This document shows positions 34,277-50,085 of a stretch of DNA of 64,000 nt, piece by piece (positions within the stretch are counted from its first letter, which is position 1; each line of letters begins with the position of its first letter). Source of the DNA: Tessaracoccus oleiagri. Its GTDB lineage: Bacteria; Actinomycetota; Actinomycetes; Propionibacteriales; Propionibacteriaceae. The position numbers and the translations under genes are program-made. The notes beneath the pieces are model-generated. The model searched no databases, was not told the DNA's origin, and saw nothing but the letters and a program-made list of their open reading frames with translations. The stretch spans positions 62,001-126,000 of the forward strand of contig NZ_FNGP01000003.1 of assembly GCF_900103275.1 (NCBI RefSeq), read 5' to 3'.

Positions 34277-36837
34277 GACTCAAGTCTCACGGCTACGACG
34301 TCCTCCCGGGGCAGCGCGTCGATGCCGGGGGCGGAGTCCTCCCCGGACCGACGTGCGGCCGCCACCAGGTCGTTGGCGCTGCGCAGCACCGGGCGACGCC
34401 CGAAGGCGCCGGGCTCCACCGCCGCAGCGGTGGTGACGTGGAACTCCGCCGTCTCGCCGGGGAGCAGTGTCACCAGGGCGCGGTCCACCCGCGCCCGCGG
34501 GTCGATGTGGTCGACGAGGAGCGTGAGGTCCTTCACGAGCGCGCGGGCGGTCGCCACCACTCGCACGCCACCGTCGGCCGCCTCGACGCGCACGTCGAGC
34601 GCCTCGTCGGAGAGGGCAAGCGAGGTGTCCTCGGCGAAGTACCAGAGCGCGCGCTCCCCGGTCGACAGGTCCGCGACGACGAACTCCGCCGTCGCGTCCT
34701 TCACCGCCAGCACGTCGCGCGGCAGTGGGACGGTCACGGCGGAGCGCGCCGGCACCGACACCGACCGGCGGTCCTCCGCCAGGACGAGGCCGCCGAGGCC
34801 GCACCGGCGCGCCCAGAGGGTCGCCTCCCACGCGTCCGGGGAGTCGTTGTGCAGCACCAGCGCGGGCCCGTCGGGTCGCGGCTGGATCGTGGCGAGCCGG
34901 TCGGCGAACACGTCGCGGAGCGCGTACCACAAGGGCTTGCGGACGCGGTGCGCGTCGACGGCGGACCAGGACACCACCGGCCAGCAGTCGTTCAGCTGCC
35001 AGACCACGGCGCCCGTGTTGAACGGGGCCAGGGATCGGAAGTGCTCGATCCCGAGCCGTACGGCGCGGGCCTGGTTGAGTTGCGTGGCCCAGTGCCAGTC
35101 GACGTAGTCGGCGGGCTCGGGGAGGTGGTCGCCCAGCCCGCGCTGCAGCTTGCCCTGCCCGTCGTCGGCCTTCTGGTGGACGAGCAGGTCCGGGCCGAAG
35201 GGGGAGCGGGGCTCGTCGTGCACGACCGACTCGAGCGTCGCGAAGGCGGGCGGGCCCTGGAAGCCGAACTCCGCCACGAAGCGGGGCCGGTAGCTGCGGT
35301 AGTGGAGGTAGTCGTGCGTGTTCCAGACGTCCCAGATGTGCATGCAGCCGCTGGTGTCGTCGTTGGGGTGCAGGTAGCGGTCGAAGGAGAAGGGGCTGCC
35401 CTCGAGGTAGGGCACCCCGGGGGCCAGCTCGGACACGACGCGCGGGAACAGCTCGGTGTAGTAGCCCTCGCCCCAGGTGGCGCCGTCGAGCATGGCGCGC
35501 CAGCCCCAGTCGGCCCAACCCCAGATGTTCTCGTTGCCCCCGTTGAACAGCGCCAGCGACGCGTGGCCGGCGAGGCGGCCGACGGCCTCCCTCGCCTCGG
35601 CGTCGAACTCGTCCCACAGCTCGGTGTCCTCGGAGTAGGCGGCGCAGGCGAGCGGGAAGTCCTGCCAGACCAGCAGGCCGAGCTCGTCGCAGAGGTCGTA
35701 GAAGTCCTCGGACTCGTAGATGCCGCCGCCCCAGACGCGAAGCAGGTTCATCCCGGCGTCGACGGCGTCCGTGACCGACGCCCGCAGGCTGGCCCGGGTG
35801 ATCCGCGGCAGGTAGGTGTCGTCGGGGATCCAGTTGGCCCCGCGCACGTAGACGTCGGCCCCGTTCACACGCACCACGAAGCGGTTCCCCTCGGGGTCGG
35901 GGGAGGTGTCGACCTCCACCGAGCGGAAGCCGAGGCGGCCGCGCCACTCGTCGACGGTCTCGCCGGCGGGCGACAGGAGGGTCACGGTCGCCGGGTACAG
36001 CGGCTGGTCGCCGTGGGTGCGCGGCCACCAGGGCTCGGCCCCGGGCACCGCGAGCTCCAGACGGTTGTCCCCGGACGCGTCGACGGTGTGGTCGAGATGG
36101 TCCCCGACGCGGACTCGCAGCGTGTGGCCCGGGGCGTGGTGCTCGACCGCCATGCGGAGATCCAGTGTGGCACCGGCCTCGGCCGACCACGCCGTCAGGG
36201 GGCGGACCTCGGCCAGGCGCGGGCCGGAGCGCTCCTCGAGGGCGATGGGCCGCCAGATGCCGGCGGTGACGATCTCCGGCCCCCAGTCCCAACCGAAGGC
36301 GTAGGCGGGCTTACGGATGGCGTTGAAGGGGTGCGGGTTGGAGTGGGGGCGCTCGCCCAGCACCGCCTCGCGCTCGGCGGCGTACCGCTGGGCGGCGGTG
36401 AAGAGCACCCGCAGGTCGTTGCGGCCCTCGCGCAGGTGGCGGTGCACGTCGAAGCGGTAGGAACGGTGGTGGTTGGCGGTGCGGCCGATCTCGGCCTCGC
36501 CCAGCCAGAGGGTGGCGACGGTGTCGAGGCCCTCGGCGACGAGCTCGTGCCGGTCGTGCCCGTCGGGGGTCCAGTCGAAGGACCTGCGGTACTCCCAGTC
36601 GACGTGGCCGATCCAGGCCAGCGCCGCCTCGTTGCGGCCGTCGTAGGGGTCGGGGATCAGGTCGGCTGCGAGGAGGTCGAGATGCACGACGCCGGGCACG
36701 TTGCCGGGGATGCCGTCGGTGAGTGTCTGGGCCAGGGCCTCCGGGACCGGGCCTCGTACGGCGCGGAGCGTCCAGGCGCCACCTAGGTCGAGACGGTCGG
36801 AAGGGGTGACAGAGACACCGCTGGGTGAGGGAATCAC
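34273..36837 (-). CDS. GH2 beta-mannosidase
   Basis: 854 residues with the five-domain GH2 layout: jelly-roll start, Ig-like domain, TIM barrel and two C-terminal beta domains. The acid/base Glu436 is in NGGNENIWGW and the nucleophile Glu523 in VAEFGFQGPP, the patterns of GH2 mannosidases; the segment AYAFGWDWGPEIVTAGIWRP is also typical of beta-mannosidases. No signal peptide, so it should hydrolyse imported oligosaccharides. GTG 36837 has GGAG 8 nt upstream. First gene of a three-gene operon divergent from lacI; a LacI-type operator lies in the gap. Confidence 0.9.
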   Translation of the reverse strand: MIPSPSGVSVTPSDRLDLGGAWTLRAVRGPVPEALAQTLTDGIPGNVPGVVHLDLLAADLIPDPYDGRNEAALAWIGHVDWEYRRSFDWTPDGHDRHELVAEGLDTVATLWLGEAEIGRTANHHRSYRFDVHRHLREGRNDLRVLFTAAQRYAAEREAVLGERPHSNPHPFNAIRKPAYAFGWDWGPEIVTAGIWRPIALEERSGPRLAEVRPLTAWSAEAGATLDLRMAVEHHAPGHTLRVRVGDHLDHTVDASGDNRLELAVPGAEPWWPRTHGDQPLYPATVTLLSPAGETVDEWRGRLGFRSVEVDTSPDPEGNRFVVRVNGADVYVRGANWIPDDTYLPRITRASLRASVTDAVDAGMNLLRVWGGGIYESEDFYDLCDELGLLVWQDFPLACAAYSEDTELWDEFDAEAREAVGRLAGHASLALFNGGNENIWGWADWGWRAMLDGATWGEGYYTELFPRVVSELAPGVPYLEGSPFSFDRYLHPNDDTSGCMHIWDVWNTHDYLHYRSYRPRFVAEFGFQGPPAFATLESVVHDEPRSPFGPDLLVHQKADDGQGKLQRGLGDHLPEPADYVDWHWATQLNQARAVRLGIEHFRSLAPFNTGAVVWQLNDCWPVVSWSAVDAHRVRKPLWYALRDVFADRLATIQPRPDGPALVLHNDSPDAWEATLWARRCGLGGLVLAEDRRSVSVPARSAVTVPLPRDVLAVKDATAEFVVADLSTGERALWYFAEDTSLALSDEALDVRVEAADGGVRVVATARALVKDLTLLVDHIDPRARVDRALVTLLPGETAEFHVTTAAAVEPGAFGRRPVLRSANDLVAAARRSGEDSAPGIDALPREDVVAVRLES

Positions 36838-36930
36838 GTGGATAACTCCGTGGGTCGTGGTGTTCGAATGAACCGGCCAGGGCTCAGTGGAACACCCACG
36901 CGACGAACTCTAGGCCATCCGACGCGACTT

Positions 36931-36944
36931 GTAAAGCGGTTTAG
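36931..36944. promoter_or_regulatory. LacI-family operator between the GH2 operon and lacI
   Basis: GTAAAGCGGTTTAG matches the perfect site at 49931-49944 at 12 of 14 positions and keeps the TAAA-N4-TTTA symmetry. It lies 87 nt before the GH2 start and 46 nt before lacI. It would control the GH2 operon, and possibly lacI itself. Confidence 0.7.
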
Positions 36945-36977
36945 TAGCGTGATTGCATTTCCCTTCGAGGGAATGGG

Positions 36978-36992
36978 TAGTCTCTCAACATG
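36978..36992 (+). promoter_or_regulatory. -10 box of a leaderless lacI transcript
   Basis: TAGTCT (36978-36983) precedes the ATG at 36990 by 6 nt, with no Shine-Dalgarno sequence between them. Confidence 0.5.
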
Positions 36993-38069
36993 CCGACACC
37001 CACGGGCGATGGAAAGCCTCGCCGCCTCACGATCGCGCAGATCGCTGAACGAGCGAACGTGTCTCCTTCTGCGGTCTCGTTCGCGCTCAACGGCCGCCCG
37101 GGAGTTTCCCCCAAGACCCGCGAGCGGATCCTGGAAGTGGTCCGCCAGGCCAACTGGCGGCCCAACTACGCGGCCCAGGCGCTGTCGAAGTCCCGGGCGG
37201 GAGTGATTGGTGTGGTCACGATCCGTGAACCGGGCCAGCCGCTCTGGTCCGCCAGCTTCGGTGGTCATTTCCTCGCGGGCGTGCAGTCCGCCCTCGCGGA
37301 GCATGGCGTCCTCCTCATCCTGCACACGGTCCAGAGCCTCGACGAAGAGGCGCAGCTCTACGAATGCTGGTTGGGTCAACGCCGGGTCGACGGAGTGCTC
37401 GTCATCAACCCGCGGGTCACGGACCCCCGACTGGAAGAGTTGGACAGGATCGACCTCCCCGCCGTCGTCGTGGGCGACACCCGCGAACAGTCGGATCTGA
37501 GCTGCGTCTGGACGGATGACGAGGACGCGGCCCACATCGCAGTGGAGCACCTCGCGAGGCTCGGTCACCGGCACGTCGCCAGGATCGGCGGTGACCCGGA
37601 GCTGCTCCACTTCGCGATCCGCGAGCGCGCCTTCAAGGCTGCAGCCCAGGACGCTCGCGTCAAGATGAACGCCGAGACACTGGACGCCGATGCGACGGCT
37701 GCCGAACGGGTCCGAGAACTGGCCGCTGCGCCCGTCAACCCTCTTACGGGCGTGATAGTCGAGGACATCGAGTTCGCGGTCCACCTGACGGGCGCGCTCC
37801 GCCAGCTGGGCATCTCGGTGCCCGGGGACATTTCGGTCCTCGCCTGGGACGACAGCCCCGCGGCCACCTTGCTGACCCCTGCGCTCACGGTGCTCCACCG
37901 AGACATCACCGAGTATGGCAGGCTCGCCGCAGACCAGCTGATCGAGGCCATCGAAAGCGGCGAGCGAAGGTCGATCCGGGGAACCAGCACCCGGCTCGTA
38001 CGGCGTGACAGCACGGGTCCGGTCGGGCATCCAGTCAGCGGGGCGGGATCACCACCTCCCCCGGAATGA
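36990..38069 (+). CDS. LacI-family transcriptional regulator
   Basis: 359 residues. The N-terminal helix-turn-helix with hinge (about residues 14-62; LTIAQIAERANVSPSAVSFAL) is followed by a periplasmic-binding-like sugar-sensing domain beginning GVIGVV. Probable repressor of the glycan genes: operators of this class lie beside it and at 42953 and 49931. The last ~12 codons (SGAGSPPPPE tail) overlap the 3' end of the convergent FAD oxidoreductase gene by 35 bp. The effector is probably a sugar released from the target glycan (inference). Confidence 0.9.
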   Translation: MPTPTGDGKPRRLTIAQIAERANVSPSAVSFALNGRPGVSPKTRERILEVVRQANWRPNYAAQALSKSRAGVIGVVTIREPGQPLWSASFGGHFLAGVQSALAEHGVLLILHTVQSLDEEAQLYECWLGQRRVDGVLVINPRVTDPRLEELDRIDLPAVVVGDTREQSDLSCVWTDDEDAAHIAVEHLARLGHRHVARIGGDPELLHFAIRERAFKAAAQDARVKMNAETLDADATAAERVRELAAAPVNPLTGVIVEDIEFAVHLTGALRQLGISVPGDISVLAWDDSPAATLLTPALTVLHRDITEYGRLAADQLIEAIESGERRSIRGTSTRLVRRDSTGPVGHPVSGAGSPPPPE

Positions 38070-39333
38070 TGGCGCCCCTGGCACGCAGGGCATCGTGCAA
38101 CAACGGAAGCGGCACTTCTGCCATGGGGACTCTTTCCGTGACCGACAGCGCTGCATTGGCACCCGCCGCCTGTCCCATGGCCATGCAGGAGGCTTGAACG
38201 CGATAGGCCGAGTTGGCTTCCTGGTCGCCGGCTATGGCTCTCCCCGCGACGATGAGGTTGTTGCTACCGCGCGGGATCATCGCCCCACGAGGTATGGATG
38301 GAACGGTGCCATATGGCAGCGCACGGATCTCGATGCCGTCACCATCGGGCCGGTGCAGGTCGATGGGGTAGAAGCTGTTCGAGACCGCGTCGTCCCAATG
38401 TCGCCCGCTCAGGTAGTCGTCGCTGCGGATCCGCTCCAGGCCATCGATCGTGAAGGTCTCCCGGATCCCACATTCGATCGCCCAGGAGTCGACCGTGAGG
38501 TTCTGCAGGCCCTCCTGCCCGCGCAGGAATCGGTAGATCCGCGTAAGTGTTCTCCTGGCCTCCACCTCTGCGGCTGTCCGCGTGACGCTCGTGCCGCCGT
38601 CGACGCCCGTGACGTGAATGGTGTTCTCGCCGCGACTGCTCAGGAATCGCCGCATCGGCCTCTCGCTCATCGACAGATCAGTGGCCCGCAGCTCGCCATT
38701 GGAGACCGCCCGTGAGTAGGCCACGTCGAGGGCCTCGAAGTCGAGTTCTTCCAACTCGTACCCACCGAGCCGCACCATCAGTGTGCCCGGTTGTCTCTGC
38801 GTGTTGCTCTCCCGCTCGAGTCCCGCGAGACCGACTACGTCGGCGTCGCCGGAGCAGTCCACGATGCGACGGGCAAGGACTTGCGTCAGCCCCTCCTTGC
38901 CGCAGAGCGTCACGCGCCAGAAGTCACCCGCGGGCGACACGGCGCCCAGCATCGTGTGCAGCCGTAGACCTGAGCCGGAGCGGAGCACTGCTTCGTCGGC
39001 GGTGGCGGCGAACAGCGGAGCGACCACTGGCACCTGCAATTTGTAGTGCGGTTGTCGCCAGTCGCTGAAGTTGGGAAGCGTGCCGCCCGCCAAGGACACC
39101 GCCTGTTTGACCATCTCCCAGCCGATTCCCGCAATGACCTGCTGGCCCCACGCGTGGAACAGCCCCGGCAGAGCCACACCTGCCACGGTTGTGGTCCCGC
39201 CGAGCGCCCCGTTCTTCTCCACGAGCATGGTGCGCATACCCATCGAGGCAGCTTGGATCGCTGCTGGCACGCCGGCCGCTCCTCCGCCGATGACCAGGAC
39301 ATCGAGGAGTGTCTCACCTCCGTGAGGGGTCAC
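38035..39333 (-). CDS. FAD-dependent oxidoreductase (FAD_oxidored family)
   Basis: 432 residues. The dinucleotide-binding motif VLVIGGGAAGVPAA lies at the N-terminus, followed by EKNGALGGTTTVAGVALPG, typical of the FAD_oxidored family seen in many sugar-degradation loci. The C-terminal FAD contact is GRAIAGDQEANSAYRVQASCMAMGQA-like. GTG 39333 is chosen because it overlaps the iclR stop (GTGA); the frame is open further upstream inside iclR. The substrate is unknown; oxidation of a sugar or sugar acid is suggested by its neighbours. Confidence 0.78.
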   Translation of the reverse strand: MTPHGGETLLDVLVIGGGAAGVPAAIQAASMGMRTMLVEKNGALGGTTTVAGVALPGLFHAWGQQVIAGIGWEMVKQAVSLAGGTLPNFSDWRQPHYKLQVPVVAPLFAATADEAVLRSGSGLRLHTMLGAVSPAGDFWRVTLCGKEGLTQVLARRIVDCSGDADVVGLAGLERESNTQRQPGTLMVRLGGYELEELDFEALDVAYSRAVSNGELRATDLSMSERPMRRFLSSRGENTIHVTGVDGGTSVTRTAAEVEARRTLTRIYRFLRGQEGLQNLTVDSWAIECGIRETFTIDGLERIRSDDYLSGRHWDDAVSNSFYPIDLHRPDGDGIEIRALPYGTVPSIPRGAMIPRGSNNLIVAGRAIAGDQEANSAYRVQASCMAMGQAAGANAALSVTERVPMAEVPLPLLHDALRARGAIIPGEVVIPPR

Positions 39334-40166
39334 CACGAATCGCCTCGCACCGGAGTTGCCGAGTGGCCGAGGACCGTGGACAGTTTGGATGCTGCTGCTG
39401 TGGCCGCGTCCACGAGCAGTGTCTCGTGGGCCGGGGTTCTTCGTACAGCAGGGTAGCCGACGCAGATCGCCGCAACCACCCTGCCAGCACCGTCCCGAAC
39501 GGGAGCAGCGACACCGCAAACGCCCGCCGCTTCTTCTTCGAAGTTGGTCGCGTAGCCGGACCGGCGCACGCCGTCGAGTTCGGCGGCAAGTCGCTGCATC
39601 TCGCCCGCTGGCAGGTTGAGAAGGGCTTGTAGCTCGCCTGTGGTGGCGCCGGACAGGAGGGCCTTGCCGGCGGCAGTGCGACGCAAGGCTCCAGTGGGGT
39701 CGGAAGGGCTCCTCATGTTGCTGGGGTTGACGTTCAACAATTGGCGGCTGACGAGCACCGAGAGGTCCACTCTTCTGCCCTCGCGAAGAGTCGACAAGTG
39801 CACCGTCTCGTCGGTCCGCTCCCAAAGGTCGCGCAACACCGGTGCAGCCACGATGCCCAAGTCGTACTGCAGCTCGTAGGTGCGGTTCAGTTCGAAGAAC
39901 CGGGGCCCCAGGACGTACCGGCGGGTTTCATCGATCTGGCCCACGAGCCCATGGATTGCCAAGGCGCTGAGCAGGGTCCTGCCGGTCGAGGCGTGCAGAC
40001 CCACCCGGTCGGCCAGAATCTTGAGCGGCACTCCAGCGGGCCCGGCGGCGGCGATCTCGGTCAGCAGTGAGACAGTCCGATCGATCGCCTGGATGGGGCT
40101 GCGCGGTTGCTGAGCGGGGGCAGGCTGGTCCCCGAGGGATGGCCGAGGCTCCTGACTGGGCGGCAT
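39330..40166 (-). CDS. IclR-family transcriptional regulator
   Basis: 278 residues. The N-terminal winged helix (about residues 25-90; AIDRTVSLLTEIAA, LKILADRVGLHASTGRTLLSAL) is followed by the GAF-like effector domain with GVCGVAAPVRDGAGRVVAAICV. Starts at ATG 40166 with GAAGAGG upstream. It is transcribed divergently from the rhamnosidase and translationally coupled to the FAD oxidoreductase. Its probable operator is the inverted repeat at 40225-40241. Confidence 0.88.
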   Translation of the reverse strand: MPPSQEPRPSLGDQPAPAQQPRSPIQAIDRTVSLLTEIAAAGPAGVPLKILADRVGLHASTGRTLLSALAIHGLVGQIDETRRYVLGPRFFELNRTYELQYDLGIVAAPVLRDLWERTDETVHLSTLREGRRVDLSVLVSRQLLNVNPSNMRSPSDPTGALRRTAAGKALLSGATTGELQALLNLPAGEMQRLAAELDGVRRSGYATNFEEEAAGVCGVAAPVRDGAGRVVAAICVGYPAVRRTPAHETLLVDAATAAASKLSTVLGHSATPVRGDSW

Positions 40167-40224
40167 GGGATCGCCTCTTCTTGTTGTTGCGCCGCTCCGG
40201 TGGCTGCGCGGTGTGGTTAGATCT

Positions 40225-40261
40225 GTTCTACATTGCAGAACCTGCTTCGTCAATATAGTAG
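40225..40261. promoter_or_regulatory. Face-to-face iclR/rhamnosidase promoters with IclR-type operator
   Basis: The inverted repeat GTTCT-N7-AGAAC spans 40225-40241. On the minus strand TTGACG (40253-40248), 17 nt and TAGAAC (40230-40225) make an iclR promoter. On the plus strand TTGCAG (40233-40238), 17 nt and TAGTAG (40256-40261) make a rhamnosidase promoter. The repeat covers the minus -10 and the plus -35, so a bound regulator would switch both. Confidence 0.6.
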
Positions 40262-40293
40262 GCGAGTGCGTTTTTGCCGCAGGAGGCAACCGA

Positions 40294-42951
40294 ATGAGGG
40301 CCGAGGAGTCGCTGAGCATGCAGGTGGTCGAGGGGGCTGGGGCTGCGCCCGCGGTCGCCGTGAGCAGGTTGAGGGTGGAGTCGACCGCGGAGCCGGTGGG
40401 AGTCGACGTCGCCGCGCCCCGCTTGTCCTGGATCGTCGAGGCCGGGGCAAACGGAGTACGCCAGACGCACTACGCCGTTCGCGTCGAGGAGGTCGGCGAT
40501 GCCGAGGGCGCCTCGCCGGCCGTGTGGGAGCTCGGACCGGTGGCGTCGTCCGCCACCCGGAGCGTCGATTACGCCGGTTCGCCACTGAAGGCGAACACCA
40601 GGTACCGGTGGCGGGTGTCCGTGTCCACGTCGGCAGGGGAAGCCTCTGCCTGGTCCACGTTTCGGACCGGCTTGTTCATCGACGCGGACTGGGCGGGGGC
40701 CAAGTGGATCGCTCGGCGTGGGGGCACTGTCGGGCGGATCTCCCAGCCCGCACCAGTCATGCGCCGGAGCTTCGTCCTCAATCGTCCCGTGGTCAGTGCC
40801 CAGCTGTACGTGGCCGCCGGAGGGTATGCCGACGTCCGCATCAACGGGGACGCCCCGGATCGGGGGGTGCTAGCACCGGGCTTCACCGATTACGACGTCT
40901 GCGTGCAGTACGACGCCACCGAAGTGGCCGAGCTTCTGCACTGCGGCATCAACACACTCCGGGTGGAGCTGGGACGGGGCTTCTATGCAATGCTCCAACG
41001 GAACATCTGGGGGTGGGAAAGGGCCCCGTGGCACGCTGAACCGTGCGTGAGGATCGCCCTGCTGGTCGAGCATGACGACGGCAGCCGCACTTCGGTGGTG
41101 ACGGACGAGGAGTGGCGCGCCGAGGACGGGCCAATCATCTTCGACGACCTCTACGCAGGTGAGTCGTTCGACTTCTCCAGGCGACTGGTTGGCATCGACG
41201 ATGCACGCTTCGATGATGGGCCATGGCAACCGGTGGTCACCGTGGCCGGCCCCCGCGGGGCCCTCAGGCACCAGCGCCAGCCTCCGATCAGGGCGACGGA
41301 CACCATCCATGCGGTGTCGGTGGTGCGCCTGGCCCCCGGCCGATTCGTCGTCGAGTTTCCGCGGGTGATGGCTGGCTGGGTGACGTTGACCATCCCTGCC
41401 CGGGCGCGATCCAAGGTGAGAGTCGTGTATGCCGAGACGCTGCGAGCCGACGGCAGCGCCAACAACGACGACCCTGCGGACTACTACGAGGGGCGGTTCC
41501 AGACCGGTGAGGTGACCTTCACGGCCGAAGGGCAGTCCTGGAGTCCAAAGTTCAGCTACTACGGGTTCCGTTACGTCGAATTGACCGGCTGGCCGGACGA
41601 GCAGCCGCCGACCGGGGACAGCGTAGTGGCCCATTGCATTCACACCGACCTCCGGCGCACCGGTGCGTTCAGCTGCTCTGAGCCCCTGCTCAACGAGATC
41701 CACGGCATCGTCGTCGACACGGTCCTCAACAATGCGCATGGGATTCCTACGGACACACCCACGTTCGAGAAGAACGGATGGACCGGGGACGGCATGGTGG
41801 CCGCGGAACTGATGCTGATGAACTTCGACGCGCACGAGTTCCTGGCGAAGTGGACCGAGGACATCGTCGCGACCGCCCGTCACACGGGGATTCCCCGTGT
41901 GATCGCCCCCCATGGCGGTTGGCCGCACGACTGGGGTCCAACGCCGACGTGGAACGCCGCCATGGCACTGGTTCCGCAATGGCTCCACCTCTACACCGGG
42001 GACGAGAGGAGCTTGGCGACCCATTACGACGTCCTGGCGGAACATGCGCGGCTCGAGTTCCGGCGGGCATCGTCGGGCATAGCGACCACCACGCTCGGTG
42101 ACTGGGTGGCCCCCGAGACCCCTCCGGGTGGCGGCAATCCCGAGGAGGACCTGCGCGTCACGGCAACGATCTTCCTGCACGCGATCCTGAGCGCCGTGGC
42201 TGACGCGGGGCACTTGGTGGGCCGCCGGGGGGAGTCCCAAGAATTTCGCGTGCTCGCGGGACAGGTGAAACAGGCGTTCCTGAACGCCTTCTACGATGCC
42301 TCCGCCGGCGTGGTCAAGGGAGCGGGAGAGAGGGAGTTCCGGCAGACGCACAACGTCCTCGCTCTGGCGTTCGGGCTGATCCCCGACTCCGGGCGACAGG
42401 CGGTCGCGGACGCCGTGGCCAACGACGTGGTGCAGCGCGATTTCCATCTCAATACTGGGGCCTTGGGGACCAAGTACCTGTTGCCGGTGCTGAGCCGTCA
42501 CGGGCACTCGGATGTGGCGGTACGCGTGGCACTGCAGACCTCCTTTCCCAGTTGGGGATACTGGCTCGCAAACGGTGCGACGACGACGTGGGAACATTGG
42601 TCGATCGAGTCCCGCTCACGCGGACACTATTTCCTCGGCACTGTGGATGACTGGCTCTTCCACGACGTCGCCGGCATCCGTCCGCTGGTCCCGGGGTACC
42701 GCGTGTTCCTGGTGTCCCCGATGCTGGCTGCCCCGCTCACGTCAGCCACGGCCAGCATCGAGACGGCCATGTTGGTCGTGAGCGTCGGTTGGCTGCAAAC
42801 CATTGACGGCCATGAAGTGCACGTCGGAGTACCGGTGGGAGCAACGGCGGTCGTCAGGCTCCCCGCCGGTCACGTCACCATCCTTGAATCCGGGGGGCAC
42901 AGGTTGCGCTCGTACAGCGAACCGCGTGAAAAAAGTCCGCCGCAGACTTGA
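40294..42951 (+). CDS. Alpha-L-rhamnosidase (GH78)
   Basis: 885 residues with the bacterial alpha-L-rhamnosidase order: N-terminal fibronectin-like domain (SRLRVEST...PRLSW), two beta domains with GYADVRINGDAP, then an (alpha/alpha)6 catalytic barrel. The motif DTPTFEKNGWTGDGM near residue 490 is the family hallmark with its acidic catalytic residues, and a C-terminal beta domain follows. No signal peptide, so it acts on imported rhamnosides. AGGAGG lies 7 nt before ATG 40294. Codon use is a little less GC-biased than in the housekeeping genes, in line with an accessory locus. Confidence 0.9.
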   Translation: MRAEESLSMQVVEGAGAAPAVAVSRLRVESTAEPVGVDVAAPRLSWIVEAGANGVRQTHYAVRVEEVGDAEGASPAVWELGPVASSATRSVDYAGSPLKANTRYRWRVSVSTSAGEASAWSTFRTGLFIDADWAGAKWIARRGGTVGRISQPAPVMRRSFVLNRPVVSAQLYVAAGGYADVRINGDAPDRGVLAPGFTDYDVCVQYDATEVAELLHCGINTLRVELGRGFYAMLQRNIWGWERAPWHAEPCVRIALLVEHDDGSRTSVVTDEEWRAEDGPIIFDDLYAGESFDFSRRLVGIDDARFDDGPWQPVVTVAGPRGALRHQRQPPIRATDTIHAVSVVRLAPGRFVVEFPRVMAGWVTLTIPARARSKVRVVYAETLRADGSANNDDPADYYEGRFQTGEVTFTAEGQSWSPKFSYYGFRYVELTGWPDEQPPTGDSVVAHCIHTDLRRTGAFSCSEPLLNEIHGIVVDTVLNNAHGIPTDTPTFEKNGWTGDGMVAAELMLMNFDAHEFLAKWTEDIVATARHTGIPRVIAPHGGWPHDWGPTPTWNAAMALVPQWLHLYTGDERSLATHYDVLAEHARLEFRRASSGIATTTLGDWVAPETPPGGGNPEEDLRVTATIFLHAILSAVADAGHLVGRRGESQEFRVLAGQVKQAFLNAFYDASAGVVKGAGEREFRQTHNVLALAFGLIPDSGRQAVADAVANDVVQRDFHLNTGALGTKYLLPVLSRHGHSDVAVRVALQTSFPSWGYWLANGATTTWEHWSIESRSRGHYFLGTVDDWLFHDVAGIRPLVPGYRVFLVSPMLAAPLTSATASIETAMLVVSVGWLQTIDGHEVHVGVPVGATAVVRLPAGHVTILESGGHRLRSYSEPREKSPPQT

Positions 42952-42976
42952 CACTAAAGCCCTTTAGTTGTTGAAT
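42948..42976 (+). promoter_or_regulatory. Promoter of the sugar ABC operon with LacI-type operator
   Basis: TTGACA (42948-42953) and TTGAAT (42971-42976) are 17 nt apart. Between them lies the palindrome ACTAAAG-CC-CTTTAGT (42953-42968), so a bound LacI protein would block RNA polymerase directly. The -35 box overlaps the rhamnosidase stop codon. Confidence 0.75.
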
Positions 42977-43043
42977 CTCCTGTACCGGCCAGGTCTCAAG
43001 AACGCCCACTCACTACTCAATGCCGAGAGATTAGAGGATCCAG

Positions 43044-44351
43044 ATGCTTGCATCGTCCCGCCGTCGCGTTGCCGTCCTCACGGTCGCAGCGCTTTCCACC
43101 GGTTTCCTGGCCGCCTGCTCCGACAGCAACGCCCAAGAGACCAACGAACCCGCCCCTGCTCCCGCCAGCTCCGCAGAGCTCGGAGGAACGCTCACGATCG
43201 CCACCAGCAGCGATATCGGCCCGAAGCTGTTCATCGACGACTTCACCGCGGAAACCGGCGTCGACGTCAAGGGCACCTATGCCGAGGCCGGTGCACTGGG
43301 TGAGCAGATCCGAATCCAGGTCACGTCGGGGACTGCCCCTGACCTGTTCCGTTCCGCGCCCGGCTACGCGGCGCCGTCGTCGGTGCTGAACCTTGCGGAG
43401 GAGGGGGCACTGATGGACCTTTCCGACCAGCCATGGGCCGAATTCGTCCCCGAGTCCTTCGCCCCGCTGCAGCAGCTCGATGACAAGACCTACGCCTTCC
43501 CGACCTACGGTCAGGCCATGCTCGCCTTCTACAACAAGGCGGTGTTCGAGGAAGTCGGGGTCGAACCTCCGACCACCTGGCCTGAGTTCATCGAGGTCAT
43601 GGACCAGTTGAAGGCGGCCGGCAAGACCCCGATCGCCCTCGGTCTCGCCGACGCCTACATCATGCAGTTCTTGCCGTTCGCACTGTCCTCGACGCTGGTC
43701 AATGGGCAGACGCCGGACTTCTACGACCGCCTCAACGCCGGCGAGACCTCATTCGTCGAGTCTGAAGGATGGCGGAAGACCCTCGAACTGTTCCTCGGAC
43801 TCATCGAGGACGGCTACACGACGCCGAACCCGCTCGGCATGCCGGGGGATCCCGCCATGCAATCGGTGGGCAGCGGCGAGGCGGCCATCGTCGTCATGCC
43901 GTCCGCCGCATCCCCCGTGCTCGCCGGCTTCATGGAAGGCGGGGCCGACCAGATGGGGTCCTTCGCGATCCCGGCCACGGACGATGCGAGCGAGACCTTC
44001 GTCGCATTCACTCCTGATTACCTGGTCGTGAACGCCGACGCGGAGAACGCCGACGCCGCGCTGGCGTTCCTCGACTACATCTCCGCCCCGGAGCGCACGG
44101 CCGAGTGGGCTGCCGAGATGGGTGCCATCCCTGCGCTGACCAACGCCGAGCCGATCGACAACCCGCTCAACCAGACGGTACAGCCGTTCCTCGACGAGGG
44201 GCGCACGGCACCCTTCGCCAACCACGCCTGGCCCGGCGGCCAGGTCGCCGCGGCCCTCATGGAGGTTGGTCAGCAGGCAGTCGAGGGCTCCAAGACGATC
44301 GACGACGTGCTCGCCGCCATGGACGCTGCCTACCAGGAGGCCATGAAGTGA
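43044..44351 (+). CDS. Sugar ABC transporter substrate-binding lipoprotein
   Basis: 435 residues of the extracellular family 1 (CUT1) type. The signal peptide ends in a lipobox LAAC (Cys25) followed by an Ala/Pro linker. The mature part has GGTLTIATSSD, AFYNKAVFEEVGVEPPTTWPEF and the hinge regions common to oligosaccharide receptors. It should capture a glycan fragment for the two permeases coupled to it. GAGG precedes ATG 43044. The ATPase is not in the operon; a shared MsmK-type ATPase encoded elsewhere is likely (inference). Confidence 0.9.
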   Translation: MLASSRRRVAVLTVAALSTGFLAACSDSNAQETNEPAPAPASSAELGGTLTIATSSDIGPKLFIDDFTAETGVDVKGTYAEAGALGEQIRIQVTSGTAPDLFRSAPGYAAPSSVLNLAEEGALMDLSDQPWAEFVPESFAPLQQLDDKTYAFPTYGQAMLAFYNKAVFEEVGVEPPTTWPEFIEVMDQLKAAGKTPIALGLADAYIMQFLPFALSSTLVNGQTPDFYDRLNAGETSFVESEGWRKTLELFLGLIEDGYTTPNPLGMPGDPAMQSVGSGEAAIVVMPSAASPVLAGFMEGGADQMGSFAIPATDDASETFVAFTPDYLVVNADAENADAALAFLDYISAPERTAEWAAEMGAIPALTNAEPIDNPLNQTVQPFLDEGRTAPFANHAWPGGQVAAALMEVGQQAVEGSKTIDDVLAAMDAAYQEAMK

Positions 44352-45298
44352 GCACAGCTCTCGCCGAGAGGGTGTCTGCGGCCTCCGGGCCGCAGGCCCC
44401 CTCGCGGGCGGGGCGCCCCGGGGGAGCGGCGCGCCGCCGGCGGCTGGCGCCCCAGTGGTTCCTGGCGCCCGCCCTCCTCTTCTACGCAATCGTCGTCCTC
44501 TACCCCTCCGTCGCCGGTGGCTACTATGCCTTCACCGACTGGGCGGGTGGGGCCGAGGCCAACTTCATCGGACTCGACAACTTCCGCGAGATGCTCGACG
44601 ACCAGGCGGCCGTCGCCTCGCTCCGCAACACCCTCCTGATCGCGGTCTCGCTCACCGTCGTGCAGTCGGGACTCGGGCTCCTGCTGGCCCTCGCGCTCAA
44701 CTCCGCGATCCGCGCCCGCAACCTGCTGCGCACCCTCTTCTTCGCCCCCATGATGATGCCGCCCGTCATCGTTGGTCTCCTGTGGCAGTACATCTACACG
44801 CCCGGCGGCCCGCTCGACACCGCACTCGGGGCGCTCGGCCTCGGCGGCCTCATCCAGAGCTGGCTCGGCAGCTCCGACATCGCCCTCTGGTCGATCATCG
44901 CGAGCGTCATCTGGCACCACGTCGGCATGTCGATGGTCATCTTCCTCGCCGGCCTCCAGGGCATCCCCTGGGAGCTGTACGAGGCGGCCGCCCTCGACGG
45001 GGCCGGCAAGCTGCGCCAGTTCCTCTCCGTCACCTGGCCGCTCCTCGGGCAGGCCATCACGATCGCCACCGCGCTGACGATGACCTCCTCCCTCAAGCTC
45101 TTCGACCAGGTCTTCGTCATGACCGGCGGCGGCCCGGGCGTCTCCACCCAGACGCTGTCGCTGATCATGTACCGCGAGGCGTTCGTCTACGGCGAGTACG
45201 GCTACGGCTCCGCCATCGCGCTCGTGCTGACGATGATCGTCGCCTTCATCGTCTTCCTCCAGATGTCCATCACCCGACGAGGGGAGGTCGACGCATGA
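44348..45298 (+). CDS. Sugar ABC transporter permease (MalF/UgpA type)
   Basis: 316 residues with a basic N-terminus, six helices and the EAA loop YEAAALDGAGKLRQF near residue 213. GTG start overlapping the binding-protein stop by GTGA; ATGA overlap with the second permease. It forms a heterodimeric pore with that partner. Confidence 0.9.
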   Translation: MSTALAERVSAASGPQAPSRAGRPGGAARRRRLAPQWFLAPALLFYAIVVLYPSVAGGYYAFTDWAGGAEANFIGLDNFREMLDDQAAVASLRNTLLIAVSLTVVQSGLGLLLALALNSAIRARNLLRTLFFAPMMMPPVIVGLLWQYIYTPGGPLDTALGALGLGGLIQSWLGSSDIALWSIIASVIWHHVGMSMVIFLAGLQGIPWELYEAAALDGAGKLRQFLSVTWPLLGQAITIATALTMTSSLKLFDQVFVMTGGGPGVSTQTLSLIMYREAFVYGEYGYGSAIALVLTMIVAFIVFLQMSITRRGEVDA

Positions 45299-46185
45299 GC
45301 GCCACCGCAACCCGGATCGCCACCAGTGCGGTCACCGCCACCGCGGCACCGCGACGCCGACGGTTCCGCCACGGCTACGGGCGTCCGCTGCTCGAGGTGG
45401 CGATGATCCCCATCACCATCGCCTACCTCTTCCCGCTCTACATCATGGTCTCGATGTCGTTCAAGACCACCTCCGAGATCGCTTCCTCGACGGTGGCGCC
45501 CCCGCAGTCGCTGTTCCTCGGCAACTACGAGACCGCCTGGGTGAGCGCAGGCCTCGGCCGGGCGATGCTCAACAGCCTGCTCATCACCGCCGTCAGCATC
45601 ACCATCGCCGTGCTGATCGGGGCCATGGCGGCGTTCGCCATCGTGCGCGGCAACCGTCGCACGAGCACTTGGAAGCTGATGCTCTTCCTCCTCGGCCTGA
45701 TGATCCCGGGCCAGCTCGGAATGGTGCCGCTCTACATCCTGATGCGGGATGCGGGTCTGCTCCAGACCCACGCGTCGCTCATCATCTTCTACGTCGGCAG
45801 CCTGATGCCGATGACCGTCTTCCTCTACACCGGGTTCCTCAAGACCCAGTCGCCCACCTACGAGGAGGCGGCCAAGATCGACGGGGCGGGCTGGTGGAAG
45901 GCCTTCTTCCACGTCGTCTTCCCCCTGCTGCGGCCGGTCACCGGCACGGTGATCATCGTCAACACCATCAACACCTGGAACGACTTCCTCACCCCGCTGC
46001 TGTACCTCGCCGGCACCGAGAACCGCACGCTCCCCGTCGCGGTCTTCTCCTTCCAGGGGGAGTTCGCCAGCGAATGGGGCCTGATCTTCGCGGGCATGAT
46101 GATCGCCGCGCTGCCGGTGCTCATCGTGTACTTCTTCCTGCAGCGCCACGTCATCCAGGGCTTCGCGGGCGGCCTGAAGGGGTGA
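45295..46185 (+). CDS. Sugar ABC transporter permease (MalG/UgpE type)
   Basis: 296 residues, six helices, EAA loop EEAAKIDGAGWWKAF near residue 194 and the C-terminal FLQRHVIQGFAGGLKG typical of MalG-type permeases. Coupled to the preceding permease (ATGA) and to the following esterase gene (GTGA). Confidence 0.9.
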   Translation: MSATATRIATSAVTATAAPRRRRFRHGYGRPLLEVAMIPITIAYLFPLYIMVSMSFKTTSEIASSTVAPPQSLFLGNYETAWVSAGLGRAMLNSLLITAVSITIAVLIGAMAAFAIVRGNRRTSTWKLMLFLLGLMIPGQLGMVPLYILMRDAGLLQTHASLIIFYVGSLMPMTVFLYTGFLKTQSPTYEEAAKIDGAGWWKAFFHVVFPLLRPVTGTVIIVNTINTWNDFLTPLLYLAGTENRTLPVAVFSFQGEFASEWGLIFAGMMIAALPVLIVYFFLQRHVIQGFAGGLKG

Positions 46186-47354
46186 TCCCCCGACCACTCC
46201 CCGTCACCTCGCACGTGCACCTGCCCGTGCGGGTGGCCCCGCCACACAACTCGAGCGACGCGGGTGCAATCACCACCCGTCTGCACCACGTCCTCGAACG
46301 CGACGCGTCCGGCATCCGGCTCGTCTACGCCAACTGGTCCAACGACCAGGGCGCGGACCTCCCGGGGCCGGACGCGATCCGCGTCTCCGCCACCGTCGCG
46401 CTCGACGGTGGGGCGCCGCTGCCCGTCACCTTCGACGGCGAACCCGCCGCCACGCTCGCGCCCGGCGAGGCGCGGATCAGCGACCCGCTGCCCATCGGGG
46501 CCCCGAAGGGCGCGACGATCACCAGCACGACCACCGCACGCGGCGGCACCGTCCCCCTCGGCCCCTGCACCGACGCCACTGAGGGCGAGGGCGTGGCAGT
46601 GGGGGAGCGGGAGCCGGAGCCCGGCACCGCCTACGGGTACGGCCCCTGGCAGGTCCTCGGCGACGTAGCCGACGTCGCGCCCCTGCTGCTCGTCACCGGC
46701 GACTCGAACGCGGTGGGCTTCGGTGACCGCCGCGGCACCGCCGACCACCTCGGCTGGGTCCGGCGGGCGTTCGCCGGCACCGTGCCGCTCATCAACCTCG
46801 CGGTGAGCGGCGGCACCGCGCTGGGCGCGCAGACCGACGCATCGAAGCTCCGGCGCGGCCGGTTGCTGCAGTGGGCGGAGCCCGACGTCGCCCTCGCCGC
46901 CCTCGGTACCAACGACCTCCAGCGCGGCGGTCCGACGCTCGCGGAGATGCAGCGGAGGCTGACGGCGCACTGGCTCGACCTCGCGGGAGCCGGGCGGCCC
47001 GTCCACGCGTGCACGATCCCGCCCGTGACGACGTCGACGGACGGGTGGCTGACGATCCCCGGACAGGTTCCCACCCCCGGGAGCGACGTGCGCGCGGCGG
47101 TGAACGCCTGGCTCCGCACGGTCCCGGCGCCGCTGGCCGGGGTCGTGGACGTGGCCCGCGCCCTCTGCGCCCCGGAGTCGGAGCACGTCTGGGGCGCGGG
47201 CCTCACGGATGACGGCGTGCATCCCAACGCGGTGGGCCATGCGGCGGCCGCAGGGGCCGCCGCATGGCTCGTCGCGTCACTGTGCGATGCGGAAGATGGC
47301 GCTGCGCCACTTCTCCAACGGCACCCGGATGCCTCCCTGGGCCAGCTGCGCTGA
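46182..47354 (+). CDS. SGNH/GDSL-type esterase with N-terminal beta domain
   Basis: About 390 residues. The N-terminal ~150 residues look like a beta-sandwich. The SGNH hydrolase part follows with block I TGDSN (Ser near 174), block II SGGT, block III GTND and block V DDGVHPN with the catalytic His near 348. Coupled to the sugar permeases, so a carbohydrate de-acetylating role (for example acetyl-mannan) is the likely one (inference). No signal peptide is seen. The domain ends near WLVAS, but the frame runs 24 codons further and overlaps the convergent GH5 gene by 78 bp. Confidence 0.78.
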   Translation: MIPRPLPVTSHVHLPVRVAPPHNSSDAGAITTRLHHVLERDASGIRLVYANWSNDQGADLPGPDAIRVSATVALDGGAPLPVTFDGEPAATLAPGEARISDPLPIGAPKGATITSTTTARGGTVPLGPCTDATEGEGVAVGEREPEPGTAYGYGPWQVLGDVADVAPLLLVTGDSNAVGFGDRRGTADHLGWVRRAFAGTVPLINLAVSGGTALGAQTDASKLRRGRLLQWAEPDVALAALGTNDLQRGGPTLAEMQRRLTAHWLDLAGAGRPVHACTIPPVTTSTDGWLTIPGQVPTPGSDVRAAVNAWLRTVPAPLAGVVDVARALCAPESEHVWGAGLTDDGVHPNAVGHAAAAGAAAWLVASLCDAEDGAAPLLQRHPDASLGQLR

Positions 47355-49895
47355 GGTGCCGCTGAAGACGGAGCTGCCGTCCTCGGCGAGCAGCCGGAAG
47401 CTGCCCTCGCGCTCGATACGGGGGTACACCTTGTCCCGTGCCGGGTTCTTGGCCGACCTGCGGTAGACGACTAGGTGCTCCGGGCCGACGATCAGCTGGT
47501 GGTCGACGCCGGTGCGCTCGTCCACAGGCACACCCGCGCCGGCCAGGAAGGACGCCAGCGCCTCCCGCTCGAGGGCGGCCATGTCGTCCACCCACAGGAT
47601 CGGGACGGGGAACCCGTCGGCCTCGAGGACGCTGCGCACCCTCGCATCGAGGTTGCGTCGGTCCACCACCACGGCCTTGTAGTCGAAGTCCGCGCTGAGC
47701 CCGTCCACCTGCTCCAGGCCCGTCGGGACCATGGTCAGGAGCCGGTCGATGATCTCGTCGTCGGTCAGGAGGTGGAACGCCGGCAGGTGCAGGTCGAGCG
47801 CCAGCCGGACGAAGGGGACGACGGCGAAGTTGTGCCCGTTCGCGATGGGGACCGCGGCGGGGTTCTGGATCACCGCCACCTGCGCGCCCGACCAGTCCAC
47901 CGGGCCGGCGGCGTAGACGGGGGAGAAGCGGCGGTAGTGCCGCTCGAAGGCCTCCCGGAAGGGGACGAAATCCACCGCGTTGTGCCACAGCGCCCAGTGC
48001 AGCTGGCCGACGGCGCCGGCCGCGTAGTACTGGGCGAGGCCGGCCTCGATCATCAGTTCGCCCGCCTCGGACTGGGGCAGGTCGGGCAGGAACGACTCCC
48101 ACCCGTAGCTGCCGCCCTCACCGTTGTAGACGGGTCCCGAGGTGGAGTACGGGGCGAACAGCGAGGCGATTGCGTGCGAGAACACGTCGTCGACGTCGCG
48201 GGCCAGCCACGGCGACCGGCGCTGCTCGGCGTCGGGCCGCAGGTCGATGGGGGCGTTCGGCATGTAGTGGTGGGGCGCGTTGCCGTCGACGATGTTCGGC
48301 AGCTGCCAGGTGGAGACCGAGGTCGACACGTCGTGGCCGTACGCGCCGACCATCGCGAACACCAGCCGCTGGGGATCCGCGCCCTTGACCGCCATCGCGC
48401 ACTGCTCGGTGACGCGTCGCCAGTTCGACTGGATGGACATGTAGGCGTCGTGCGGCTCGTTGTGGGGGATCTCGATGCCCATGATGGCGTGGTTGCCCTT
48501 GAAGTGGGTGGCCAGCCAGCGATGGGAGTCGAGCAGGGTGCCCAGGTGCTCCGGGTCGGCCACGTTGAAGGTGCCGCGCTCCGTGGGCGACGGGGCGAGG
48601 TACGCGAACGCGGTGCCCGGCTTCCCGGTCCCGGCGTCGTGGTTGTTCCCGCCGCTCCAGTAGTCGTAGGGGTCCACCGGGTAGCGGTGCCAGTCGAGCA
48701 CGAGCCGGATGCCGTGGCGGCCGGCCCGCTCGGCGAAGTGGTCGAGCATGGCCAGCCACTGCGGATTCATGCCCCGCGACGTGATCTCGCCGAGCCAGGC
48801 GTCGTCGTCCGGGAAGACGCCGCGGGCGGGCTGCACCATGCCGAGGTTGATCGGCACGCGGATGACCCGCAGGCCCCAGTGCGCCATCAGCGCGATGTCG
48901 GCGTCGAGGCCGGTCCAGTCGGCGGTCCGCGGGAACTTCAGCATCACGAGGTCGTAGTTGAAGCCGGTGAAGCCGAACGGGCGGTCGCCGTCGAGCAGCT
49001 TGCCGCCGACGACGGTGAGCGGGCCCAGCTCCTGTGGGTCCCTGATCTCGACGGGGAAGGTGTGGCTGACGCCGAGGTGGTCGATGGTGATCTCGGTCGT
49101 GCCCGCGGCCACGGGCGTGAGGTAGCCGTACTCGTCGACGGTCAGCACACCGGGGTCGGCGGGGGTGAGGGACGAGTGCTGGGTCACGTCGCGCGTGGTG
49201 CCGTCGGCGTACTTGGCGCGCACCACGAGCGGGACCAGGTCGTCGTCGTCGGTGAGCGCGAGCGGCAGGCCGGTGGTCTCGAGCGAGCTGGGCACCACCT
49301 CCTCCACGAGGTGCTCGACGCGCACGTCGTCGAACCAGGCGACGGCCTTGGTGGAGCCGAGCGTCAGGTGGTCCTTCCAGACCTGCAGCTCGAGGCGGAT
49401 CACGTCGTCCATGCCGGCGATGTTGTTCCACTGGGTCATCTCGACGTGCTGCCAGGCCGGCTGACCGGCGGGCACGTTCACCTGGACGTTGCGCACGCCC
49501 TGCGTGGCGCTGACCAACCTGACTTGGATCCGGGAGACGCCCTGGGTGCGGACCTTGAGGGTGACCTTGCGGACGTCGAGCCGGTCAAGGGTCTTGCGTA
49601 GGGCGACGTATCGCCCCGCGGAGGTGAAGTCGCCCGTGAGGCGGCCCGAGCGTCGGCCGACCGCGGCGAGCGAGTCGTCGCGGACGAACTCGCCCACGGC
49701 CGCCCCGTACTCGTTGCCGAGGTGCAGCGCCCAGGGCTCGTGGCGGGACTCGAAGTGGCCGATGACGTCGGTCCAGGTGACCGGCGCCGCGGCTGCGGTG
49801 ATGGGGCTGAGGTGGTTGGCCAGCACGCTGGTGGCCACGACCGCCCCGGTGCCGATCAGCATCGTGCGTCTGGTGAAGGTGTACTTGGGATCCAT
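47277..49895 (-). CDS. Tat-exported GH5-like glycoside hydrolase, multidomain
   Basis: 872 residues. The twin-arginine signal TRRTMLIGTGAV is followed by a hydrophobic stretch and a cleavage region near AAAA-P. A CBM-like beta-sandwich (about 40-195) and a Big_2-type Ig domain (about 215-290; DEYGYLTPVAAGTTEITI) precede a clan-A barrel (about 300-630). HNEP carries the acid/base Glu480 and YNGEGGSYG the nucleophile Glu593, the GH5 pattern. A C-terminal beta domain follows. Likely a secreted mannanase- or cellulase-like enzyme; the substrate is inferred from the neighbouring beta-mannosidase. Its promoter carries a LacI-type operator. Confidence 0.82.
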   Translation of the reverse strand: MDPKYTFTRRTMLIGTGAVVATSVLANHLSPITAAAAPVTWTDVIGHFESRHEPWALHLGNEYGAAVGEFVRDDSLAAVGRRSGRLTGDFTSAGRYVALRKTLDRLDVRKVTLKVRTQGVSRIQVRLVSATQGVRNVQVNVPAGQPAWQHVEMTQWNNIAGMDDVIRLELQVWKDHLTLGSTKAVAWFDDVRVEHLVEEVVPSSLETTGLPLALTDDDDLVPLVVRAKYADGTTRDVTQHSSLTPADPGVLTVDEYGYLTPVAAGTTEITIDHLGVSHTFPVEIRDPQELGPLTVVGGKLLDGDRPFGFTGFNYDLVMLKFPRTADWTGLDADIALMAHWGLRVIRVPINLGMVQPARGVFPDDDAWLGEITSRGMNPQWLAMLDHFAERAGRHGIRLVLDWHRYPVDPYDYWSGGNNHDAGTGKPGTAFAYLAPSPTERGTFNVADPEHLGTLLDSHRWLATHFKGNHAIMGIEIPHNEPHDAYMSIQSNWRRVTEQCAMAVKGADPQRLVFAMVGAYGHDVSTSVSTWQLPNIVDGNAPHHYMPNAPIDLRPDAEQRRSPWLARDVDDVFSHAIASLFAPYSTSGPVYNGEGGSYGWESFLPDLPQSEAGELMIEAGLAQYYAAGAVGQLHWALWHNAVDFVPFREAFERHYRRFSPVYAAGPVDWSGAQVAVIQNPAAVPIANGHNFAVVPFVRLALDLHLPAFHLLTDDEIIDRLLTMVPTGLEQVDGLSADFDYKAVVVDRRNLDARVRSVLEADGFPVPILWVDDMAALEREALASFLAGAGVPVDERTGVDHQLIVGPEHLVVYRRSAKNPARDKVYPRIEREGSFRLLAEDGSSVFSGTSAQLAQGGIRVPLEKWRSAIFRIAQ

Positions 49896-49930
49896 CTGGG
49901 GAGTTCTCCTGTCCGGGCGCCGCTTCCTTG

Positions 49931-49977
49931 CTAAAGCGCTTTAGTGTAGGATAGGCACGAATCAGGCCGACGGTCAA
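49931..49977 (-). promoter_or_regulatory. Promoter of the GH5 gene with perfect LacI-type operator
   Basis: Minus-strand TTGACC (49977-49972) and TATCCT (49953-49948) are 18 nt apart. The exact palindrome CTAAAGCGCTTTAG (49931-49944) lies just downstream of the -10, over the likely transcription start. Confidence 0.75.
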
Positions 49978-50009: not shown

Positions 50010-50085
50010 TGGTGCCCCCAGCGGGGATCGAACCCGCGACCCATGGATTAAAAGTCCACTGCTCTGCCAGCTGAGCTATAGGGGC
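50010..50085 (-). tRNA. tRNA-Lys (TTT)
   Basis: Complete cloverleaf: acceptor GCCCCTA/TGGGGGC, D-stem GCTC/GAGC, anticodon loop CTTTTAA (TTT) on GTGGA/TCCAT, T-arm GCGGG-TTCGATC-CCCGC, encoded CCA. A possible -10 TACTAG lies 10 nt upstream (50100-50095), but no -35 is convincing. Confidence 0.95.

Follow-up and report, generated by a model that had tools for sequence, protein, structure and literature searches.

Palindromic sites at a carbohydrate cluster

The DNA analysed here is a stretch of 64,000 nucleotides from Tessaracoccus oleiagri (the window), which contains a cluster of carbohydrate genes, a gene for a LacI-family regulator (lacI, 36990..38069, + strand) and three candidate operators for a protein of this family. 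The sites are 14-bp palindromes, all within 13 kb. Site 1, GTAAAGCGGTTTAG (36931..36944, + strand), is located in the divergent region between the start of a GH2 gene (36837, - strand) and the start of lacI. Site 2, CTAAAGCCCTTTAG (42954..42967, + strand), occupies the spacer between the predicted -35 and -10 boxes of an operon encoding a sugar ATP-binding cassette (ABC) importer and an esterase, whereas site 3, the perfect palindrome CTAAAGCGCTTTAG (49931..49944, - strand), lies over the predicted transcription start of a gene for a GH5-like enzyme. An earlier note on this DNA had described the three palindromes, had placed them with respect to these genes in the same way and had stated that they occur here only in promoter regions; all of this was confirmed, the letters being exact and no further place in the window matching with up to two mismatches.

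With this tolerance, the pattern STAAAGCNNTTTAG recovered from the window only sites 1-3 (six strand-matches), as compared with a mean of 0.26 matches and a maximum of 2 in 100 shuffled windows. The genome-wide search that the note had proposed was also run, and in the 3.16 Mb of the genome of the window (G000; 3,156,218 bases in 11 contigs, 99.98% complete) the three sites were the sole exact matches. Outside them, one place has one mismatch (C3:1403) and seven have two, and since a reversed control pattern yielded 48 matches in the whole genome at the same tolerance, these inexact matches look like background.

Conservation across the genus

The comparison covered 39 genomes of the genus, which were scanned with the pattern STAAASCSSTTTAG. 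This pattern had been widened after viewing the sites of the relatives (position 6 is C in G139), and the scan was in this sense not blind. Three places each were found in G000, G119, G134, G139 and G167 (the carriers). Of the remaining 34 genomes, G124 and G182 have a single place and the other 32 lack any. Within G119, G134, G139 and G167, exactly three places in the entire genome match with at most one mismatch, all of them in one cluster. Each site keeps its location in the five carriers: site 3 is identical in all of them, site 1 retains GTAAAGCGSTTTAG and site 2 retains CTAAASCCCTTTAG, zero or one nucleotide after the sequence TTGACA, and when the promoter regions of the five genomes are aligned, the operator stands out at all three promoters as a block of conservation. 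The lone G182 match, which was taken as chance, is placed at the upstream end of a reading frame, within an 11-kb stretch to which none of 18 queried window proteins could be matched.

It might be supposed that the palindromes themselves are chance or leftover sequence without a regulatory role. This explanation has next to no probability, given that the sites are kept at these promoters in five genomes with LacI proteins sharing 69-80% identity with that of the window; because only two stray matches occur in the 34 other genomes, the three matches per cluster are not attributable to chance. The link between the three loci drawn in the earlier note, that of one regulon, is in this way sustained, with nearly the same variants at the same promoters in all five carriers and no such trio in the 34 others, while the common pathway that the note derived from it is sustained only partly.

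Operators and predicted promoter architecture

The predicted promoter of the GH2 operon (36907..36935, - strand) is formed by a -35 box TTTACA (36930-36935), which overlaps site 1, a 17-nucleotide spacer and a -10 box TAGAGT (36907-36912). The arrangement TTTACA-17-TANNGT is present on the GH2 strand in all five carriers, with TAGAGT, TACGGT, TACTGT, TATGGT and TATCGT at the -10 position. Site 1 seems to serve at the same time as -35 box of the GH2 operon; the unusual base at its first position is likely explained by the sequence on the GH2 strand, which reads TTTACA. Site 2 is flanked by TTGACA (42948-42953) and TTGAAT (42971-42976), the two boxes of the predicted ABC-operon promoter (TTGACA-17-TTGAAT, 42948..42976, + strand); TTGACA is kept in five of five carriers, and a T....T sequence is found across them as -10 box at 17-18 nucleotides from the -35. 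The stop codon of a neighbouring GH78 gene overlaps the predicted -35 box of this promoter. Site 3 is located 35 nucleotides upstream of the GH5 start codon and 3 nucleotides past the predicted promoter TTGACC-18-TATCCT (49948..49977, - strand). In this case TTGAC is present in all the carriers and a clear -10 in four, in which the site lies 3-6 nucleotides past TTGAC(N)-17/18-TANNNT, the -10 of G167 being indistinct. The departure of each operator from a perfect palindrome would then fit its overlap with a promoter whose boxes are predicted.

A -10 box is also predicted for lacI (TAGTCT, 36978..36983, + strand), 6 nucleotides upstream of the ATG. A TANNNT sequence recurs 6-7 nucleotides upstream of the lacI ATG in the five carriers, with no clear -35 seen there, and suggests a leaderless lacI transcript. 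The end of site 1 is separated from this ATG by 34-64 bp in five of five carriers, and the predicted -10 of lacI is found downstream of the site; control of the GH2 operon therefore looks more direct than autoregulation. In this regard, the attribution of the sites to the lacI at 36990 is supported for the regulon, which comes together with this LacI in every carrier, and less so for autoregulation, which is less direct than had been implied.

The LacI protein as candidate binder

The LacI protein of 359 amino acids combines an N-terminal helix-turn-helix domain (PF00356, 46 bits with a cut-off of 27) with a C-terminal sensor domain resembling periplasmic binding proteins (PF13377, 107.1 bits with a cut-off of 26.5), and its residues 11-345 align with the solved LacI-family protein 4o5a. 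The five orthologs have in common a recognition-helix segment, VSP(S/T)AVSFALN, that none of the 13 other LacI-family proteins of the genome has; of these, L117 comes nearest, with AVSF-LN. Stretches of 30-32 kb fetched from the carriers were compared gene by gene, with only alignments of at least 35% identity being reported; a query, 'pat', that contained one stop was left aside. No counterpart of a second regulator of the window, an IclR protein, was found in those of G134, G139 and G167; LacI is for this reason the only window regulator found in these three clusters. The sequences point to a regulon of local extent, serving one glycan and governed by a LacI-type repressor, with the LacI at 36990 very probably the binder.

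Several observations weigh against such a regulon, or against this protein as its binder. The centre of site 2 is CC and not CG in all five genomes, sites 1 and 3 having a CG centre in all of them; exceptions to the central CG pair of LacI-family sites are reported by Ravcheev et al. 2014 (PMC4052901). The five carriers share descent and are not independent tests. An ortholog of LacI (E up to 1e-90) was found in five of the 39 genomes, which are the three-site carriers, with 52 of 57-62 candidates scored in G182, G193 and G197; the GH5 gene (E up to 1e-60) and the ABC binding protein (E up to 1e-80) are found in the same five, and co-occurrence cannot separate LacI from other cluster genes that are equally distributed. 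Moreover, the genome holds 14 LacI-family helix-turn-helix domains, that is, 13 besides that of the LacI at 36990, and another LacI protein, with 29% identity, adjoins GTAAAGCGCTTTAG, a 14-mer of the same kind, in G124, so that the operator core is not private to the LacI considered here. The G124 sequence lies between the LacI and ABC genes of another LacI/ABC/GH2 cluster (L103, 4461-10998).

The abundance of LacI-family domains and the case of G124 favour the idea that one or several other proteins of this family bind the sites, the adjoining lacI not being the main regulator. Such an idea has to face the presence of a site at a short distance upstream of this lacI in five of five carriers, the invariable presence of lacI in the cluster and the recognition-helix segment kept in the five orthologs and unlike the other 13, and it seems very unlikely as compared with binding by the adjoining LacI.

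Genes of the cluster

The first gene of the GH2 operon encodes a beta-mannosidase-like enzyme of 854 amino acids (34273..36837, - strand; PF22666) related to the solved beta-mannosidase 5n6u (E 5.2e-125). It is followed by a gene for a protein with a predicted GH42/GH164-like fold (31832..34276, - strand) and by a third one for a protein resembling L-arabinose and L-fucose isomerases (30381..31835, - strand; PF02952 and PF11762), and the reading frames of the operon overlap by a few bases. The ABC operon comprises a solute-binding protein (43044..44351, + strand; PF01547), whose N-terminus looks lipoprotein-like from its sequence, two permeases assigned by eye and by position (44348..45298 and 45295..46185, + strand), with counterparts in seven relatives that are 71-88% and 73-93% identical, respectively, and a GDSL-type esterase (46182..47354, + strand; PF13472) with no obvious signal peptide by eye. 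The GH5-like enzyme is encoded convergently (47277..49895, - strand) and is probably secreted, as judged by eye from a twin-arginine-type N-terminus. Its match to the Pfam cellulase family (PF00150, E 1.1e-13) is moderate, and a phmmer search at E 0.01 found no solved GH5 relative, the only residues matched being 219-311, with Teneurin-like proteins.

The earlier note had joined these enzymes and the importer into one predicted glycan pathway. This finds support in the GH2 enzyme, which resembles solved beta-mannosidases, and less in the GH5 match, which is moderate, or in the esterase, a generic GDSL hydrolase. The manno- or related oligosaccharide that had been put forward is a reasonable guess as substrate or inducer, resting mainly on the GH2 enzyme, which is related to beta-mannosidases in sequence.

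Other observations concern the GH5 end of the cluster. The GDSL esterase and GH5 genes overlap by 78 bases (47277-47354), and the match ranges in L070 and L072 overlap too. The GH5 gene of G167 is split into two reading frames (G167:C21:167123-169710), which would represent either a broken gene or a sequencing error. A tRNA-Lys gene (50010-50085) adjoins the GH5 end in the window, and a tRNA-Pro gene is close to it in G139 and G119, which hints at insertion near tRNA genes.

Searches with the protein encoded at 31832-34276 returned neither a Pfam or NCBIfam family (E 0.001) nor a relative of solved structure (sequence search, E 1). Relatives occur in Tessaracoccus rhinocerotis, T. lapidicaptus, Tessaracoccus sp. 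OS52 and an uncultured Arachnia record, and seven were found in the genome collection searched. A structure model based on an 8-sequence alignment reached a mean predicted local distance difference test (pLDDT) value of 77.1, with some portions of the N-terminal domain scoring under 50. In a Foldseek search the model fell near GH42 beta-galactosidases and a GH164 beta-mannosidase (best E 3.9e-15, with TM-scores of only about 0.3-0.5), and VIA-align 2 placed it near GH42, exo-glucosaminidases, Op5Man5 and GH164 (Z up to 13.1; root mean square deviation of 5.7 over 521 residues). Judging from the model, the protein is probably a glycosidase of a general GH42/GH164-like fold, a fold that proves no activity. 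When the same protein was searched against plasmids at the protein level, a single weak and partial match (28% over 27%) was obtained.

In the window, lacI and the ABC operon are kept apart by a cassette of three genes (38035-42951), for a flavin adenine dinucleotide (FAD) oxidoreductase, the IclR regulator and a GH78 rhamnosidase; this cassette, which the earlier note had passed over, carries no operator. In G139, G119, G167 and G134 lacI adjoins the ABC operon; the same three genes are found in G119 at the far end of the cluster, beyond the isomerase gene, and counterparts at the identity level given above were not found in the fetched regions of G134, G139 and G167. The three genes were rejected as members of the regulon, given the lack of an operator and their different place in G119, and the cassette behaves as a separate unit. 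The intergenic region between the IclR and GH78 genes contains the palindrome GTTCTACATTGCAGAAC (40225-40241), which may be an IclR site; a search of the region fetched from G119 did not recover it.

Relatives outside the genus

The core set formed by the ABC genes, the esterase, the 31832-34276 protein and the GH5 enzyme is also present in Actinotalea, Phytoactinopolyspora and Agromyces. The respective 22-kb loci (L014, L015 and L018) contain no match to CTAAAGCGCTTTAG even with three mismatches allowed, and an operator common to these genera was rejected on this basis. In Actinotalea an IclR-like reading frame, recognised from its translation, adjoins the homolog of the 31832-34276 gene. The comparison suggests one core gene set wired to different regulators in different lineages. 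The Actinotalea locus (L014, 6944-14585) contains, next to the core cluster, frames identified by eye as a Zn-type dehydrogenase, an amidohydrolase-like protein, an enolase-type protein and a Gfo/Idh-type protein, and these extra genes resemble an oxidative sugar route replacing the isomerase.

A second shared element

A further sequence, ACCGGCCAGGKCTC, is shared by two of the promoters: one copy (42984-42997) is located where the ABC transcript is predicted to begin, and another (36872-36885) lies in the GH2 leader in the opposite sense relative to GH2. A second protein reading this element at both places would provide two-input control, an arrangement compatible with the regulation by LacI proposed above. 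Exact copies in G000 and G139 are confined to these two promoters, and the core CCGGCCAGG is present at the ABC and GH2 promoters in five of five carriers, with a few further copies in the same stretches. Nevertheless, exact copies occur in 16 of the 39 genomes; just one of three copies in G119, and none of those in G134 and G167, lie within the cluster. With two mismatches the window showed no excess (5 matches vs 2.9 expected), and ACCGGCCAGGKCTC was rejected as a genome-wide motif when its relaxed form gave 9 matches as compared with 10 for a reversed control. The element was not seen at the GH5 promoter. As an RNA structure it was likewise rejected, with six predicted pairs and no covariation, and Rfam at gathering thresholds matched only tRNAs in the window. 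With such a balance, two-input control is a tentative proposal and rather doubtful.

A model for the proposed regulon

What follows is inferred from these data as regards the binder and its action as a repressor, the promoter boxes and inducer, and the sequence of steps in the pathway. Without inducer, LacI would bind the three palindromes and block the three promoters, covering at site 1 the -35 box of the GH2 operon, at site 2 the promoter spacer of the ABC-importer and esterase operon and at site 3 the transcription start of the gene for the presumably secreted GH5-like enzyme. An oligosaccharide or sugar derived from the glycan would release LacI. The GH5 enzyme would then cut the polymer extracellularly and the ABC system would take up the fragments, from which the GDSL esterase may strip acyl groups intracellularly, with the GH2 enzyme, the GH42/GH164-fold protein and the isomerase completing the breakdown. 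A broader scheme, in which dual control through ACCGGCCAGGKCTC is combined with an acylated-glycan regulon containing a new GH42/GH164-fold glycosidase family and with an exchange of IclR- and LacI-type regulators between lineages, in either direction, is unlikely as a whole.

The model sets out, in a form open to testing, the wiring of a glycan pathway with one regulator, three promoters and a defined gene set. Knowledge of the inducer would give a lead to the substrate and a function to a family without a Pfam or NCBIfam model. The sites would also offer a clean example of repressor operators fitted into promoters.

Comparison with known systems

The proposed regulon is a believable but ordinary sugar-responsive circuit of a well-known kind. 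The exact 14-mer CTAAAGCGCTTTAG was not found in the literature searched, the RegPrecise database lying outside that search, and 'Tessaracoccus' and 'Propionibacter-' are absent from the text of PMC4052901. Among actinobacteria, the RhaR regulons of Actinomycetales, as described in PMC3870299, also have a LacI-family regulator over uptake genes, and several of them include an ABC system and rhamnosidases; unlike them, the GH78 rhamnosidase found here lacks an operator and belongs to a separate cassette with an IclR regulator. A likeness in sequence is offered by the AglR regulon of Rhizobiales and Rhodobacteriales, for which PMC4052901 gives the motif nnntcAAAGCGCTTTgannn with the core AAAGCGCTTT. 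The inner ten bases of this motif are the same as here, whereas the outer ones are tc/ga instead of CT/AG, the genes controlled are those for alpha-glucosides and the organisms belong to another phylum. With the local LacI regulons treated in that work, the cluster has in common a LacI-family protein encoded beside its predicted targets, an even palindrome with the known AAAGCGCTTT core and the predicted control of genes for sugar uptake and breakdown.

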